Positions 2 to 63,340 of a DNA stretch of 64,000 bases are shown here, piece after piece. The stretch spans positions 1-64,000 of the forward strand of contig CAJOIZ010000003.1 in assembly GCA_905234835.1 (NCBI GenBank), given 5' to 3'. The first letter of the stretch is position 1. Each line of letters begins with the position of its first letter. Under the pieces are notes generated by a model, which was not told the origin of the DNA, made no database searches, and worked only from the letters and a program-made list of their open reading frames with translations. A program made the position numbers and the translations under genes. The stretch is from Paludibacteraceae bacterium. GTDB lineage: Bacteria; Bacteroidota; Bacteroidia; Bacteroidales; Paludibacteraceae.

Positions 2-685
2 GACTACAACGGTCACACTGTCAACACCGCCACACTCAACCGCCGTTTCACACAAGGCAAGTGGGCGACGCTCTGTCTGCCGTTCAATGTCAGCAAAGGC
101 ATGATGATGGCTCTCGGTCTGAACGCCCGCGTCTTTGAGTTCCGTTATGCGGAAACGGTAGATGCTTTGACCGTCATACATTTCGCTGCGGCAAAGTCCA
201 TTGAGGCGGGCAAAGGCTATATTGTCAATGCGAATGCCAAGTTGGCACAGAAGACCTCGTTCGTCTTCCCGAACGTAACCATCAATACCGATGCCGACAA
301 CGAGGACATCACCGCCCTGACAGGTTATAACGATAACTCGGGTCGCGGCAGCATTTACTTGGTAGGCACGCTCCGCACAGGCAAGTTGCAAGGCATGACC
401 AACGGCAACATCTATCTGGGTTTGAAGGACAACAAGCTCTATTACCCGAACACGGTTACAGGAACGAATATCCGCGCTTATCGCGGTTTCTTCCGCAGTG
501 AAGTTCCACTGAACGCCCAGCGCATCCGCATCGTGGCAGAAGGAGTTGATAATGGAGAGTTGATAATTGACAATGGACAGTTGATAATTGATAACTCCTC
601 TGCTGTCAAGTATATTGAGAATGGCATTCTCTACATACGCAGCAACGGCAAGACCTACAACGCGCAAGGCCAGAGTCTCGACTAA
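2..685 (+). CDS. C-terminal part of a secreted protein (5' end outside window) with TLCLPF-type module and NAQGQ tail
   Basis: Open frame from base 2 (DYNGHTVNTATLNRRFTQGKWATLCLPFNVSKG...), ends KYIENGILYIRSNGKTYNAQGQSLD*; parallels the C-terminus of the 1223-aa protein at 34597-38268. Confidence 0.85.
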   Translation, partial: DYNGHTVNTATLNRRFTQGKWATLCLPFNVSKGMMMALGLNARVFEFRYAETVDALTVIHFAAAKSIEAGKGYIVNANAKLAQKTSFVFPNVTINTDADNEDITALTGYNDNSGRGSIYLVGTLRTGKLQGMTNGNIYLGLKDNKLYYPNTVTGTNIRAYRGFFRSEVPLNAQRIRIVAEGVDNGELIIDNGQLIIDNSSAVKYIENGILYIRSNGKTYNAQGQSLD

Positions 686-14371: not shown

Positions 14372-15595
14372 TTATGGGATACGTCCTCCAAGGACGTTGA
14401 ACCATTGTCCGTCGCGAAGGATGAACATCTGGCCATTGCGCATCACTTTCGTGTAACGCTTTTCGTTTTTCTGTTCGTCCAATGCGGTAGGCACAGGGTA
14501 ACCGTACTGCAACGTGAACACATTGTCTCCTTTCGTCAAATGTATCCGCCAGTAGTTGATATTTTTGTTCTGGTATGCGCCGTCGCGCACGAGGGCGAAC
14601 TGCGAGACATCGCCGCCTCCGATATTCAGTATGTAGTCGTCTTCAGCAGGGGCATAGATATGCAGTTGCACGTCCGCCTTGCCGTTGGTCAGAGCAGCCG
14701 TATGTACCGCAAGATCCGTCCCGTATGCCTCCATCCATAACTGAAGTACACCCGTTCCATCACCGTGCAGTTTGGCAAGGTCTTTACCGATGACGTAACT
14801 ATTCTTCGCCTGCTGCTGGAGATAAAGTTCTATATTGTCATTGAATCCCCCGTCGGGATGGGAGATGACCAGTGTGTATCCCCCTGATTCTGTCTCGCTG
14901 GACGGCAAACGGCGGGGAGAGTCAAACTCCTCACCTGGGTCCATGTTTCCGCCGAAATCGAAACCGACACCCGATTTGGTGAATGCCAGTTTGCCCGCAG
15001 CGGCGGTCTGGATAATCAGCGGTTCACCCACGTCCCATGAACGGTCAAGCAGTTCGAGTACATAGACGCTATTGGTATTGTCATAACGGAAGGCGTAGTC
15101 CACCCCCGTCAGTTCGCCCGTTGCCTTGCTCCATGCTGTGTTGGCTACTCCGTTCCATCCGCTGACGGCGGGGTTGGTACCCTCGTTCTTGCTGACGGTC
15201 ACGTTCTTGGCTTCGGACGGGTTGTTGCCCGGACGGCATTTCCATGTGTTCTGGGTCGTGCCATTCAGCACCATCTTGTAACATCTTCCCGAGTTCAACT
15301 CGCTGTTGGTACTCACCGCCACCCACGGATCCTGCCCAGCTGCGTACCGCGAACCGTCATACACATAAATGGTGACTTTGCCTTGCGCGGCGTTCACGGA
15401 GGCATTGGTGGATGACACGATGTTCGCTACCGGTACGGTGTAGGGGACGGCAAACAGATAAGCCTTGCCTTCCACGGCTTTTGACTTGTTCTGCTCGAGT
15501 TTGAGTTCGTGGATGGTGGTCTGAGCTGTTGCAGCCCCTCCACAGAGGACGATGCTGCATAGCAGCATCAGTCCTCTTATAGAAAAGCTTTTCAT
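14372..15595 (-). CDS. Secreted protein with variant C-terminal tail
   Basis: Signal peptide; ends YTKVMRNGQMFILRDGQWFNVLGGRIP*. Confidence 0.75.
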   Translation of the reverse strand: MKSFSIRGLMLLCSIVLCGGAATAQTTIHELKLEQNKSKAVEGKAYLFAVPYTVPVANIVSSTNASVNAAQGKVTIYVYDGSRYAAGQDPWVAVSTNSELNSGRCYKMVLNGTTQNTWKCRPGNNPSEAKNVTVSKNEGTNPAVSGWNGVANTAWSKATGELTGVDYAFRYDNTNSVYVLELLDRSWDVGEPLIIQTAAAGKLAFTKSGVGFDFGGNMDPGEEFDSPRRLPSSETESGGYTLVISHPDGGFNDNIELYLQQQAKNSYVIGKDLAKLHGDGTGVLQLWMEAYGTDLAVHTAALTNGKADVQLHIYAPAEDDYILNIGGGDVSQFALVRDGAYQNKNINYWRIHLTKGDNVFTLQYGYPVPTALDEQKNEKRYTKVMRNGQMFILRDGQWFNVLGGRIP

Positions 15596-15790: not shown

Positions 15791-17098
15791 TTAGTTCATC
15801 TGCTGACCCTGTGCGTTGTAGCGGACACCGTTATTCTCAATAACCAGTCTACCGTTTTGCATATACTTCCTGGAAGCATTGCTGTCCGTTACATTGTCAT
15901 TCAAACCGGTGGGGGCTTGGCGGTTGCGGATAATGAATCGTGCGGGTGCGCCCGCTCTGCCCGGTGCGGAAATGAGTCCGGCAGGCAGTTTGAAGTAAGC
16001 ACGGAATCCTTTCAGGTTGAAATCTTCATTGGGATAATACACCTTGTTGCCTTTGCCGATGAACAGCACCGTCTTGTCGTCTTTGGTGAGAGGAGTGGGT
16101 TTTTCAATACCTACAAACTGGATGCCGTTGCCGATGGTCTGGGGAGTGAAGGTCTCTACCATTACATCGTCAAAGAAAATGTGGTCAATATTTGTTTCGG
16201 GCTTAACGAGATAAGGCACGTTGGTTTCCGTTCCGGCGGTGATATGACTGCATTCGATTGTCAGCCCTACGCTTTCCGAGAAAGTCGCACTCTCAAAATT
16301 AAAGACGACATCGGTTCCGAAGTAAGACTCTACCTGGCTCTGCGTAAGGGCAAACGGGAAGCAGAAGGTGTTCCATTGGTCAGCAGTGAACGTCCTTTGA
16401 TAGTAAACATCAAGTTTGCCGGAAGGCTGGTCGGAATAATCATTTACATCGCTGTCGCTCCATGATTTGCGCATTCCTTTCTCGTATTTATAACCGGAAT
16501 CTTTGTACTCTTCAATCAACTCATCAGTAACTTCGATAGTGTGCTTCCAACTTGGAGCATTACCGTCTTCCCAATCAATTGGATCGAGTACGACAGTACC
16601 GCGATATTCAGGTTTCACTTCCAGATAAACTATGGAACCGTTTTGCTGGAAGGGGATTTCGATAACTCCGTTTTTGCAGTATGGATCTACAGACTGAGTC
16701 ATACCATCAATCTTCAGATTGAAGATTTCGCAAGCATTGGAAAATCCTATTTGCACTGTCAAAGAAGGTGCATCTGCCGCAATGGATAATTCCTCAGGTA
16801 ATGACGCGTCAATAGTGATGGAAGAACCGGAAGTACAGTAAGCAACGTAATCACCTGTGTTTTCATCGATACAATAAACCATCAGGTCATTGTAATTCAG
16901 CGTAAAGTACAGCGTCGTACCATCAGCAATCTCAAATTGCTCATACCCGCTTGATACGTCATACTCGTTGTTGTTCTGGTCAACAATGGACTGGAAATTG
17001 GGATCCGATGCGTAATCGTAGAACGTTACAGTATGCGTTTGAGCGAACGCATAACTGATGCCCAACAGGGCAATTAGTGTTAGAAAACAGTGTTTCAT
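15791..17098 (-). CDS. Secreted protein with TLCLPF-like module and NAQGQ tail
   Basis: Signal peptide; FTADQWNTFCFPFALTQSQVESYFG; ends RKYMQNGRLVIENNGVRYNAQGQQMN*. Confidence 0.8.
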   Translation of the reverse strand: MKHCFLTLIALLGISYAFAQTHTVTFYDYASDPNFQSIVDQNNNEYDVSSGYEQFEIADGTTLYFTLNYNDLMVYCIDENTGDYVAYCTSGSSITIDASLPEELSIAADAPSLTVQIGFSNACEIFNLKIDGMTQSVDPYCKNGVIEIPFQQNGSIVYLEVKPEYRGTVVLDPIDWEDGNAPSWKHTIEVTDELIEEYKDSGYKYEKGMRKSWSDSDVNDYSDQPSGKLDVYYQRTFTADQWNTFCFPFALTQSQVESYFGTDVVFNFESATFSESVGLTIECSHITAGTETNVPYLVKPETNIDHIFFDDVMVETFTPQTIGNGIQFVGIEKPTPLTKDDKTVLFIGKGNKVYYPNEDFNLKGFRAYFKLPAGLISAPGRAGAPARFIIRNRQAPTGLNDNVTDSNASRKYMQNGRLVIENNGVRYNAQGQQMN

Positions 17099-17142: not shown

Positions 17143-17820
17143 TTATTCTTCTGTTCGTTGTCCCTGTGCGTTGTAAATCAGTCCGTTATGCCGGATCTTC
17201 AGCGTGCCGTTGTCTATGAACTTCTCTGCGGTTGCCGTACTATCCGTTTCTTCTATACCGCTGGGAGCTTGCGGATTGCTGAAATAAGCTATGTAGGTTC
17301 TGTCACCGTCAGCAGGCACTATCCGGATACGGTCGGTCACACCATCGTCCCATCCCGTGAACTTAAACCCTGTTGTTTCGTCCTCCGAGGCAATGAGCTG
17401 CACCTTCGAGCCGCAGTTCACTGAACCTGCCACATCAATGAAGATGTCGCCTACGCCGCATCGTATGAGCGCACGACCTGCATCGGCAGGCATCACCTGT
17501 GCCTCAATCGTGTACTGGACAATCTGGAACCGGGCATATATGGTCAGCGGCTCCGTTCCCACCGTTAGACGGTCGTTCTCCATCATGCCTCCGATGCACT
17601 GCCATTCTGCAAACACACTGCATTCGCTTTTCGGTGTGCTGATGAATGTCAACTGCGTGCCTTGCGCAAGGTCGTAAGGCGTGTCGGAAGCGGGATACTG
17701 ATTCCCCTTCCCGTCTGTGGCGACCACCGAACCGAAATTGGGCTTCACAATCCGCACCGGAATGGCCATCGACGTGAGGGCGAAGACTGACATCAAGTAT
17801 ATTGCGATTGTTCTCTTCAT
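17143..17820 (-). CDS. Secreted protein with InlB-like repeats and NAQGQ tail
   Basis: Signal peptide; FKFTGWDDGVTDRIRI; ends EKFIDNGTLKIRHNGLIYNAQGQRTEE*. Confidence 0.75.
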   Translation of the reverse strand: MKRTIAIYLMSVFALTSMAIPVRIVKPNFGSVVATDGKGNQYPASDTPYDLAQGTQLTFISTPKSECSVFAEWQCIGGMMENDRLTVGTEPLTIYARFQIVQYTIEAQVMPADAGRALIRCGVGDIFIDVAGSVNCGSKVQLIASEDETTGFKFTGWDDGVTDRIRIVPADGDRTYIAYFSNPQAPSGIEETDSTATAEKFIDNGTLKIRHNGLIYNAQGQRTEE

Positions 17821-34596: not shown

Positions 34597-37500
34597 TTAC
34601 TCTACACGCTGTCCTGCTGCGTCGTAGATAACGCCTTCGCGCTCGATGTAGAGAACGCCGTCACGGATGAACTTGCGTGTTTCGGGAACTGCCTGTAGTT
34701 CGCCGTTAACTACTTCGAGTTCGCCGGCATCCTCGCCGTCAACCACGATGCGGACACGCTCCATGACTTCTAATGAAGCACCGTTGATACTGCGGAACAC
34801 ACCGCGATAAGCGAGAACCGTGCTACCCGAAGTAGTGTTCGGATAGTAAATCTTGTTCTCTTTCAGACCCATGTATGTGTTCTCCGAATCTTTTATCTTC
34901 AGCGTACCTTTACGCAGCGTACCTACCAATTCGATTTTGTTGTCTGTCTGGCTTGGGTCGCTGTAACCGTCCAGTCCGTCGTATGCGTCCGCCACCGTCA
35001 AGTCCGCAACCTTGTCAGCAGCCAGATTGAAGGTCACGTTGTTGAATACGAACGACGACCTGCCCGCCAGCGCGTTGTTGGCATTGACGATGTAGCATTT
35101 GCCCGCTTCCAGTGAGACCGGTGCCGAGAAGTACAGCGTCACCTTGTTGCCATCGTTGGCGTTACCTGTAGCATAACGGAACTCGTATACACGGCCCTTC
35201 ATTCTGAGGTTGGTCATCTGGGCGGAGCTCACGTTGAACGGCAGGCAGAGCGTTGACCAGCGTCCCTGCACGAACGTGCGGTTGTAAATCACATTCTCCG
35301 TGCGACCGTCATTGTCAAGGAACGAGTTGTAGTGAGCGTTGTTGCAGCTTTCACAGAGAGTGAGGCCGAAGGTAGCAACAATAGTGATGTTCTCTGTCAG
35401 GGTGAGCGTATTGCCGGATGTGAAACCCTTACCGCCAACGGTCAGAGTTGCCAAGTCATGTCCGCTGGTTCCTACGGCGGTGATGGTAAGTGTGGTGCCA
35501 GGAGCTATATTGCGGCTGCCCGAAGTGAACGACTGTGCCGAGCCGTCGTTGTAACTTACCGTAATCGTACCATTGGTCGGAGCGGTGATGGTCACGGTGC
35601 GTGCAGCCACTTCCCATTTTGCATAAAGCGTGATGTCGGCAGTGATGCTGTTGGCTGCTATGGTGGTGATGGCATCGCCTGTGCACTCGCTGTTGTCATA
35701 CCAGCCGAGGAAGTTATATCCGCTCTTTGTCGGACTTACCAATTCTGTGGCACTGCCGTAGGTGTGCTTGGTCGGATAACCGCTTCCGTGTACACCGCTG
35801 AATGCTGCATCGCCTTGATCTTTGTAGGTGATGTTATACTGTTTGGCTGTCCATGTAGCGGTGTATTCCGTGTTGGCAGCGGGCATGGTGGCAGCGGGTG
35901 TCGGACTCCAGACATTGAATGTATAACCTGTCTTGGTCGGGGTGGCGGGTTGGGCAATCGTTGTGCCGTAAGCCACTGTGCCGTGCGTATAGTCGCCTGT
36001 CAGCGCGTCGCCGTCGGTCGTCCATGTCAGGGTGTAAGTGTTGCGGGTGTATTGGTACTCAATCACGAGCGTACCGTCTGCCAATATTGCCTCTGTTTGT
36101 GTGGATGGAGCGGTGAAGCCTGTGTAACTCTTCACGGCGGGTGTCACATTCGTTGCAGTTGTGCCGGTCAGGTTCTGTGTCTCTGTCGGCGTGGAAGGAT
36201 AGGTGCCGTCAAGGTTCTGCTGATAATGCTTGACTGTATAAGCCGTGTTGGTGTTGGGAGCGAAGGTTGCAGCGATGGTAACATTGCTGGTCACATTGTA
36301 TGTGTTGCCGGAAGTGAAAATGTTGCCACCTACCGTCAATGTGTTCAGGTGATAGCCGGTATTACCTGTGGCAGTGATTCTTAATGTTGTACCGTCTGCC
36401 ACTTCCGCCGTGTTGTTGGTAAATACCACATCTTCACTGGCAGTTACATTATATACGGCGAGTGTTCCGTTGGCTCCTACTGATTGAGTAACAGTGCGCG
36501 ACGATACTTCCCACTTGGCGTAAAGGGTAATATCCGCTGTGTAGTCTGTTGCACCGAGGGATGCAGATGTCGTATTGCCTACTGCGCCGGACTGACAATC
36601 AGAGGCAGTGAACCAACCGCCAAAGTTATATCCATCTTTGGTCGGTATTTTAAGCGTTGTGGCAGTACCATAGGTGTGTGTTGTCGGTGCATCGGTCTGT
36701 GTTCCGGTAAATGCTACATCGCCTTGATCCTTGTAAGTGATGGTGTAAACATCCGGCTCGAAGGTGACAGTGATGGTGTGGTCTCCGTCCATAAAGATTC
36801 CATCACCCGAATTGATATTCCCTTCCTCCGAATCTGTATGCGTGCCTACATGATAACCGGCTGCCGGTGTATAAGTGATGACGATTTCGTCCTCATTCTC
36901 AATCTCCGCCTCGTTGTTCGTGAAAGTGACAAATTCACCATTGTTGTTACTATACGCCGTCACTGTTCCGTTTCCGGTAACATTAAGGGTGAGGGTGTGT
37001 GTGGTGGGAGCCGATGCGGTCCACTTGGCATAGAGAGTGAAATTTGCCTGTTGTGCCGTTGCTCCAATGCTTGAACCAGCACTTGTGGTGCAGGCGGAGT
37101 TGGTGTACCAGCCGTCAAATGTGTATCCAGATTTTGTAGGATTAACAAGTGTAGTGGCTTTGCCGAATGTGTGTGTTGTCGGATAACCGCTGCCATGCAC
37201 GCCGCTGAATGCCACATTGCCTTGGTCTTTGTAGGTAATAGTATAGACAGGAGCATTACCAATAGTTGTTAATATTGTTGTTCCTGAACTTACCATGTCA
37301 CAATAAAAATAGGGATGATTATCTGCGCTTCCATTCAGAATGTAAATTGTTCCTCCTGTAAATTTGTAAATGTTCTGAGTATTAGGGGCGAAATAAGATG
37401 CGGCGGCCACAGAATTATTGTTCGACGTTCCCACTTTTGCATCTTTGACAATATACCCCACATAACTACTGTTATTGAGCCTAGATGTTGAGGTATATAC

Positions 37501-60311: not shown

Positions 60312-60598
60312 CCGCCGCAAATCATACCGTCGCTTGCCGACGTTAAACAGCAAGGACATAAAAAGGCGTTTATTGAACGTTGTTTGCGACTGGTCAGAAT
60401 CTTCGCAACATTCTACAGAATAAAGTCCGAACGGCAACAATGAATGTCCCGTGGATATGTATTATCCGTTCACGCCCGTCAATGGGCGGGACGGTTAGCA
60501 TATCTGGCGTGGACTTCGGTTGTTTTTCTACTTTATTCGGGGATTGCGAAGCCCTTGACCAGCGTGAAGAACAAGTGAACTTCACGCTTCTTTTATTG
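60312..60598 (+). ncRNA. Structured RNA candidate, rod with central bubble (6S RNA-like)
   Basis: Nested helices 60390-60396/60556-60562, 60401-60408/60544-60551, 60418-60426/60530-60538 plus apical helices; terminator GCGTGAAG/CTTCACGC + U-rich at 60562-60598. Confidence 0.6.
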
Positions 60599-60659
60599 TG
60601 TGCAGGTTAAAAGTGTAATAAGTAAACAACATAATTTAACAAACTAAAAATCAAAGACT

Positions 60660-61679
60660 ATGAAAAAACTATTTTTATTGGTTTGCACGATGCTTGTCAC
60701 CGTGCTGTGCTTTGCGCAAGAGACAAAGAAAGTAGCGATTTTGGAAACGGTTGACCGAGAGGGCAAAGTTTCGTATGCCGTCAAACTGATTCTACGTTCC
60801 AGTCTGGCGAAAGCCATTACGGGTACGGAAGGTTATGAGGCATACGACCGCACGGATATGGATGCCATCTTAGGCGAGCAGAATTTCCAACGAACGGGTA
60901 TGGTTAGCAACGAGCAAATCAAGCGTCTGGGGGAAATGACGGGTGCCAAATATGTGTTAGTGGCGGAAGCCGCTGTGGTGGATGCGAACAATATGTACGT
61001 TACCGCCAAACTGTTGGATGTGGAGACAGCTCGCACGGAAATGACCGATAATCAGATGATGGGTGTAACACCGAAAGAGATTCAGCGCGGATGCCAACTA
61101 TTGGCATCTAATCTGATAAAACCGATTCATCAGGCAGCTTCTGAACAAGATTTGGAAGAAGACGAAGAAAAGCCAAGCAAGGCAAAGAATAAGAAACAGA
61201 AAGAGAAACAGATTATTTCCGATTACGAAGACGATTCCGAGTATGAATATGGAAGAAATCCGTATGCCAATTTGGGTGAGATTACAAAAATCAGCGATAA
61301 TGAGTACCGGTTAGGGCGTTACAAGATGACGAAGAAAGGGTACGAGAAATTCATTTACGAGAACTGCCCGGAAGCATGGAAGAAATACAATGGCGGTAAA
61401 AAATGCATTGTAACAGGCTGGTCTTTGTTTGGAATAGGAGCCGCTTCTATGGTAATAGGAGGCTGTTGTATACCGGTATATGGTGGAGAAATTGCAGGTT
61501 TAACTATGATGCCTATCGGAGGTGCTTTATTTATGAGTGGTTTGATAACTTTTTCTTGCGGTTACGGAGCAAAAGGGAACGCCTACAAGACCTACAATAA
61601 GAAATGTGTGGGAGATACGCCGATAACGCTTAATCTGAAGTCTGACCAAAACGGCATCGGGTTGGCATTGCAGTTCTGA
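60660..61679 (+). CDS. CsgG/HfaB-like protein
   Basis: KKVAILETVDREGKVSYAVKLILRSSLAKAI...RTDMDAILGEQNFQRTGMVSNEQIKRLGEMTGAKYVLVAEAAV. Confidence 0.7.
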   Translation: MKKLFLLVCTMLVTVLCFAQETKKVAILETVDREGKVSYAVKLILRSSLAKAITGTEGYEAYDRTDMDAILGEQNFQRTGMVSNEQIKRLGEMTGAKYVLVAEAAVVDANNMYVTAKLLDVETARTEMTDNQMMGVTPKEIQRGCQLLASNLIKPIHQAASEQDLEEDEEKPSKAKNKKQKEKQIISDYEDDSEYEYGRNPYANLGEITKISDNEYRLGRYKMTKKGYEKFIYENCPEAWKKYNGGKKCIVTGWSLFGIGAASMVIGGCCIPVYGGEIAGLTMMPIGGALFMSGLITFSCGYGAKGNAYKTYNKKCVGDTPITLNLKSDQNGIGLALQF

Positions 61680-61683
61680 CCCT

Positions 61684-62751
61684 ATGAAACGGCTTCTTCT
61701 GTTCCTTATTTATCTTTTACCTGCTTTGCTGTCAGCCGCCCGACCGGCACCGCCTGACTGGATTGACCCTGTACTCAGGGAAGAGCGTTATCCCGCAGGG
61801 ACGTATTTTACCGGCTTCGTCTCCGTTTCTCGGAATCAGTACGAAGACAAAGAGGCTGCATACGCACGTGTACGTCAGGAAGCACGTGTCGAAGTGGTCG
61901 CATCCATACAGGTGAGTGTGGAACAAACGGTTGAGCACTTTCTGCAGAACACGCAAAACTATGGCAATGTGTCCACGTATGAAGTTATGACGATGCGCTC
62001 CGGCATAAAGACAACCATCAAGGATGTGCCGGGTTTGAACGTGGAGGTATGGGAGAACACCAAGACAGGGGACATCTGCGCGTTCGCATGGGTCAAATCC
62101 GCTGACCTGTACAAGAAACTGATGCGGCGCATTGCTGTTAATCTGTCGAAAGCCGAGGCCGTACTCAACAGCGTGGAAACGCGTGCCGGAAGCGGAGACA
62201 AGATGCAGGCTCGCCACATGCTGGCGGAAATATCTCCCATACTGGACGGTATTGAGAACGACCAGTTCATCATGCTGGGTATTGATGCCGCGACAACGGA
62301 TGAAGACTTGTCCCTTCGTGAATCAAAACAGATGAAGGAGCGTTTCTTGTCACTGACTGCGAAACTGAAAAACAGCATAGCGGTCTGTATCGACTGCACG
62401 GCGAAACTCTTTGGCACAAGTTATATGGCGTTGAAAAGTGAGATACAAGGCGCGCTGTCGGATTTGGGTGTGATGTTCGTGGATGATGCCGACCGTGCGG
62501 ATTGGGTGATACGGATTACAGCCCGGGCACGCGAGTACAACAAGGTGGATTATGGCAACGCATCGGCGTACTTTGTCTTTACGGACGCACAAATCAGCAT
62601 AGAAAAAACGGCTGACGGCAAGCGTATCTACGAGAATAGCATCAGCGAAAAGGGTACTCATACGCTCGGTTATGAGCAGGCGGCACGGGACGCATACGAA
62701 CACCTTTCCGTGCAGTTGGGTGGTATAGTTAGAGAGCAGATAACAAAATGA
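61684..62751 (+). CDS. LPP20-like secreted protein
   Basis: Signal peptide; PDWIDPVLREERYPAGTYFTGFVSVSRNQYEDKEAAYARVRQEARVEVVASIQVSV. Confidence 0.6.
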   Translation: MKRLLLFLIYLLPALLSAARPAPPDWIDPVLREERYPAGTYFTGFVSVSRNQYEDKEAAYARVRQEARVEVVASIQVSVEQTVEHFLQNTQNYGNVSTYEVMTMRSGIKTTIKDVPGLNVEVWENTKTGDICAFAWVKSADLYKKLMRRIAVNLSKAEAVLNSVETRAGSGDKMQARHMLAEISPILDGIENDQFIMLGIDAATTDEDLSLRESKQMKERFLSLTAKLKNSIAVCIDCTAKLFGTSYMALKSEIQGALSDLGVMFVDDADRADWVIRITARAREYNKVDYGNASAYFVFTDAQISIEKTADGKRIYENSISEKGTHTLGYEQAARDAYEHLSVQLGGIVREQITK

Positions 62752-62843
62752 ACCATCCTGTCCGCAAGTACATCTCCAACGGCATTCTCCTTATCGAACG
62801 CAACGGCATCCGCTACGCCGCCCAAGGCCAGCGTCTCGACTAA
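62748..62843 (+). CDS. 31-aa ORF consisting almost entirely of the C-terminal tail module
   Basis: MNHPVRKYISNGILLIERNGIRYAAQGQRLD*; starts in an ATGA overlap with the upstream stop. Confidence 0.6.
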   Translation: MNHPVRKYISNGILLIERNGIRYAAQGQRLD

Positions 62844-62884
62844 GAGATAAGAACCTGTCACCTCCGTCAATTACGTTCAAATTG

Positions 62885-63340
62885 TATTTGAACACGGCTT
62901 CCCAGAGCCGCTTGTAAAGAATATGGGCTTTGTTCATTGCGTGCGGATAGTATCCGCACCTCTATCACCACAGAAGGCTACCCGCACGGATAGCCTTCTG
63001 TTTGTTTCTTATTGCCTTCTTGTCTTTTTCTTTTATTGCCTTCTTTCTTTTATTGTCTGCGAATTTAATTCGCAGCCCTTTCGTCTGTTGTAGCGGCTGA
63101 GAGCCGCTTTTTTCTTCGTCAGTTAGCCCCGAAATAATCGTGCCCTTGTGGCTAAGAATCTTATTCGGCTTCAAAGCGTATGTCTATTTCGCGGCAATTG
63201 TATTGCCGCAAAGTCTTCTTCGCTAAAGAGTCGGACTTTGTCCATTGTGTCTACATGAAAGCCCTGCAGGCTTTTATGCCTAGAGGCATAATGGGCGGAT
63301 ATTTGAACATCGGCCTTAAGAGCCGCTTGTAAGAACCCCG
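62885..63340. repeat. Hairpin cluster with an internal duplication
   Basis: TGCGGATAGTATCCGCA, GCGAATTTAATTCGC, GCGGCTGAGAGCCGC, CGGCAATTGTATTGCCG; atttgaaca-CGGC..AGAGCCGCTTGTAA(a)GAA at 62888 and 63301. Confidence 0.75.

Follow-up and report, generated by a model that had tools for sequence, protein, structure and literature searches.

We conclude, with a probability of roughly 0.7, that a 31-codon open reading frame (ORF) beginning at the stop codon of an LPP20-like gene in a Paludibacteraceae genome is a chimeric relic, in which the end of a tail-bearing gene appears to have been fused, together with its 3' flank, behind that stop. The ORF is probably unselected. A preliminary description of this DNA had offered three options: a coupled free peptide, a programmed frameshift or the relic of a lost gene. 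The last of these fits best in modified form, with the 3' end of a tail-bearing gene fused on after the LPP20-like stop, and the other two gained no support. The tail family to which the fragment belongs is a more interesting object than the 31-aa ORF itself.

In the window, the whole 64,000-nucleotide stretch of DNA analysed here, the ORF starts with ATG and encodes the C-terminal tail module only (MNHPVRKYISNGILLIERNGIRYAAQGQRLD), with no passenger, read in the -1 frame with respect to the LPP20-like gene (Table 1). Its ATG and the upstream stop TGA (62749-62751) have bases in common, giving the overlap ATGA (62748-62751), and the LPP20-like frame ends ACA AAA TGA, with four A at 62745-62748. 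This overlap, the tail-only content and the A-run had all been described before and were borne out, as was a match of the peptide to the C-termini of five other proteins in the window, four of which were recovered by search (599-682, 15797, 17152 and 34603) and the fifth, at 14372, by eye (TKVMRNGQMFILRDGQWFNVLGGRIP).

Table 1. Features discussed in the text and their positions in the window
Feature	Position	Strand	Basis
C-terminal tail of a long protein, comparison case	599..685	+	Similarity search and frame reading
Divergent tail, C-terminus of a 409-codon open frame	14375..14446	-	By eye (TKVMRNGQMFILRDGQWFNVLGGRIP)
Tail, C-terminus of a 464-codon open frame	15794..15877	-	Similarity search and frame reading
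Tail, C-terminus of a 233-codon open frame	17146..17229	-	Similarity search and frame reading
Tail, C-terminus of a 1227-codon open frame	34600..34680	-	Similarity search and frame reading
Exported CsgG-like protein of 339 aa, opening the duplicated operon	60660..61679	+	ORF; weak Pfam CsgG match
Exported LPP20-like protein of 355 aa with its native C-terminus intact	61684..62751	+	ORF; homologue alignment
A AAA TGA, four-A run plus stop, sharing bases with the start codon of the tail ORF	62745..62751	+	Sequence
31-aa orphan tail ORF	62748..62843	+	ORF list and similarity search
Segment with homology to tail-bearing genes at their 3' ends and flanks	62757..63119	+	DNA alignment

DNA alignment connects the ORF with the ends of genes elsewhere in the genome. 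From 62759 to 63119 the segment shares 87.6% identity over 362 columns with the region at 48966 of contig C19, in an alignment that runs through the tail and its stop and on into about 275 bases of non-coding 3' flank; a relic should display homology of this kind, covering the last part of an intact gene and the flank behind it. Thus, the ORF appears to be a scrap of a gene's 3' end joined to the LPP20-like stop. Identity to contig C24 is 73%, the tail part aligns to contig C38 from 62757, and weaker or partial homology to the segment was found at tail genes on C24, C26 and C45. The tail resembles C38 and C24 slightly more than it does C19, but the flank is nearest to C19, so the segment is a mosaic. 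This mosaicism, with no single exact donor among these contigs, counts against a relic, as do the ORF, start and ATGA that remain intact in both copies of the operon described below. Apparent protein matches in the -1 frame that start upstream of the ATG lie where that frame is broken by stops. Related non-coding 3' flanks were also observed at the tail genes of the window (62841-63140), C19, C24, C26, C45 and C40, and between C19 and the window the flanks look more alike than the tails, which suggests that a tail and its 3' flank may recombine as a unit.

The preliminary description had proposed that homologous loci be compared for conservation of the ATGA and the tail, and had named beforehand relatives lacking any tail at this position as evidence against its proposal. 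A single-protein scan of contigs returned no relatives and an alignment-based search returned 16, from Paludibacteraceae/Bacteroidales bacterium MAGs; the 3' ends of 45 LPP20-like homologues were read, together with about 0.6-1.5 kb of downstream DNA. Such tail-less relatives are what we found, with the tail absent in every frame and from the downstream sequence read in all 45. Most homologues end in KEQIQQ*-like sequences that align with the REQITK* of the window protein, and because they stop at the same position without a tail, an in-frame tail broken by an indel is disfavoured.

An ATGA overlap between the LPP20-like stop and the next ATG does occur in 8 of the 45 homologues, where it leads elsewhere, mostly to a CsgG-like gene. 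The ATGA arrangement is therefore not peculiar to the tail. These eight overlaps would also suit a history in which the tail came from a true third gene of the operon, starting at the ATGA and since reduced by an internal deletion between start and tail. We think this quite improbable, as no tail-like sequence lies downstream of any homologue's stop (within about 0.6-1.5 kb, beyond which a long gene could extend) and the next genes of the homologues are mostly of the CsgG-like type already present upstream in the window. The two genes preceding the tail ORF form an LPP20/CsgG-like pair of the sort found in either order among relatives, but among the loci read a tail ORF follows the pair only in the source genome. 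The CsgG-like protein matches Pfam CsgG weakly (E=7e-4, just under the cut-off), and Pfam LPP20 is matched by 9 of 15 aligned homologues (best E 4.5e-5) and not by the window member.

A second copy of the operon lies on contig C9, with 95% protein identity and about 94% DNA identity over this part, and has the same ATGA and tail. Finding the same junction in this diverged copy rules out an assembly error. Additionally, the junction either predates the divergence of the window (C3) and C9 copies or was spread between them. The two CsgG-like plus LPP20-like operons span 60432-63052 and, on C9, 39000-44500, and they differ by a diverged stretch near 61452-61540 that is flanked by better conserved parts.

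That the ATGA and its A-rich context are kept in both copies is consistent with translational coupling, in which ribosomes ending at the TGA would restart at the ATG and release a 31-aa peptide that would have a role of its own, such as competing for the sorting machinery. The stop and ATG overlaps of the eight homologues, mostly with the CsgG-like partner, indicate that coupling at the LPP20-like stop occurs in the family. However, no such peptide is encoded at the homologous loci, purifying selection was not seen in a C3/C9 comparison of low power, and the peptide, which begins MNHPVRKY and by eye has no hydrophobic stretch, lacks a signal peptide and so would be unable to reach the periplasm by Sec. 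We thus regard a functional coupled peptide as unlikely. The shared bases of stop and start resemble those of overlapping ATGA gene pairs that use termination-reinitiation, but here the downstream frame is a fragment absent at homologous loci.

A -1 frameshift on A AAA TGA, programmed or incidental, would instead extend some of the LPP20-like protein molecules by the tail, giving tagged and untagged forms. The frame relation proposed for this in the preliminary description holds, and the AAA lysine codon, preceded by an A, permits single-tRNA slippage. By eye the LPP20-like protein seems to carry a signal peptide, which would allow export of a tagged form. Yet ATA ACA AAA TGA contains A AAA alone and no X XXY YYZ heptamer, the downstream RNA fold, computed free of pseudoknots, is ordinary (z -1.03, with 30 of 200 shuffles as good), the tail is absent in any frame from all 45 homologues, and A-rich ends before TGA also occur where homologues overlap a real next gene. 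Slippage of this kind is therefore very improbable. There is a slim chance that a few ribosomes slip or restart at AAAATGA, so that the LPP20-like protein occurs in forms with and without a sorting tail, or that a free tail peptide modulates secretion.

The C3 and C9 copies differ by 21 nonsynonymous and 32 synonymous changes in the LPP20-like gene (pN/pS 0.19) and by 5 nonsynonymous and 1 synonymous in the tail. At least five nonsynonymous changes among six have a probability of 0.034 under LPP20-like constraint and 0.57 if the tail is neutral, and the probability that the ORF survives six substitutions without selection is about 0.62. Close pairs of protein-attached tails show 21 synonymous and 12 nonsynonymous changes, and the two orphan pairs 0 and 4 (Fisher p 0.028, for pairs picked by hand). 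The ORF does not behave as a conserved small protein, with the tail at 0/45 homologues and a 5:1 ratio of nonsynonymous to synonymous changes that has low power. As only six substitutions in all separate the C3 and C9 tails, these tests are weak, and they are suggestive only of a tail ORF sequence that may be drifting neutrally.

We infer from the DNA homology that, in forming a chimeric relic, recombination or deletion would have joined the LPP20-like end to the ~90 last coding and ~275 flank bases of a gene for a tail-bearing secreted protein. The join would have landed just behind the ATGA stop, probably by chance, leaving a short open frame with a start, and the fusion was most likely pasted once and then duplicated with its neighbouring genes, yielding the two copies seen on C3 and C9. 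Coupling may give some low-level translation of the peptide, most likely with no mechanism beyond that, and a tail without signal peptide or passenger would have nothing to sort. A relic as such is ordinary; this one hints at how the genus spreads C-terminal tails, with 3' ends and flanks that move or stay behind, and moving 3' ends might serve as material from which newly secreted proteins arise. Were the ORF functional, it would be unusual as a sorting signal separated from its protein.

Searching the 2.68-Mb source genome with the 31-aa peptide gave 74 matches at E<=10, one of them not a tail; the best non-self matches are to the C9 copy (3.0e-13) and C24 (4.5e-11), and the likeness to other C-termini greatly exceeds chance. 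A profile search found 97 tails at E<=1e-4, and the tail count is thus 73-97 depending on whether peptide or profile is used. Almost all form the last ~26-30 residues of long open frames or large proteins, and the long tail-bearing proteins of the window begin with signal-like sequences (by eye). The tail consensus is KxIxNGxLYIxRNGxxYxAQGQRxx, with K, N-G, L-x-I, N-G, Y and G nearly invariant. Every one of the 61 genomes searched from this Paludibacteraceae genus has the tail, with between 1 and 97 matches per genome; at the stricter E<=1e-6 it was absent from all 59 genomes sampled in other parts of the order. No tail model of Pfam or NCBIfam matched in the proteins tested, and a limited search of the open-access literature found no title or abstract describing the short tail. 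We consider a sorting role for the tail in these proteins plausible, and the family may represent a genus-specific sorting signal, not described before, that exists beside the ordinary type A domains.

The genome encodes the T9SS translocon SprA (C23:47991-55334, 2554 bits) and holds at least 12 canonical type A sorting domains scoring over the cut-off. For a T9SS substrate of any type, the polypeptide itself must carry an N-terminal Sec signal peptide (PMC10202324); the translocon is present in the organism, and the 31-aa ORF has no such signal peptide. Like the T9SS type A C-terminal domain (TIGR04183, PF18962), the tail is a C-terminal module of large exported proteins in a T9SS-bearing Bacteroidales genome. 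In contrast to that domain, it is ~26-30 aa long with a GQRLD-like end, and its link to the T9SS is putative; the TIGR04183 profile matched neither the 31-aa ORF nor four tail-bearing proteins, and no Pfam match fell at the C-terminal tails. PEP-CTERM-like sorting tags, in which a short C-terminal homology unit is repeated on many otherwise different proteins, offer a likeness by analogy. The tail differs from such tags, as far as the analogy reaches, in having no visible transmembrane segment or basic cluster, and we know of no matched sortase for it.

Other stranded tails support the relic reading of the 31-aa ORF. Several further short tail frames in relatives are merely cut by contig ends. 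On contig C33 a 48-codon tail frame has no start codon, and the gene carrying a tail on C13 looks broken; tails in broken genes also occur in the relatives G143 and G065, and in the relative G115 a tail frame overlaps, at its 3' end, a gene whose product by eye resembles an ORF6N protein. Near-identical 57-codon tail frames lie beside GATTAGCGGGT-type minisatellites at the contig ends of C7 and C21 (L014 and L015).
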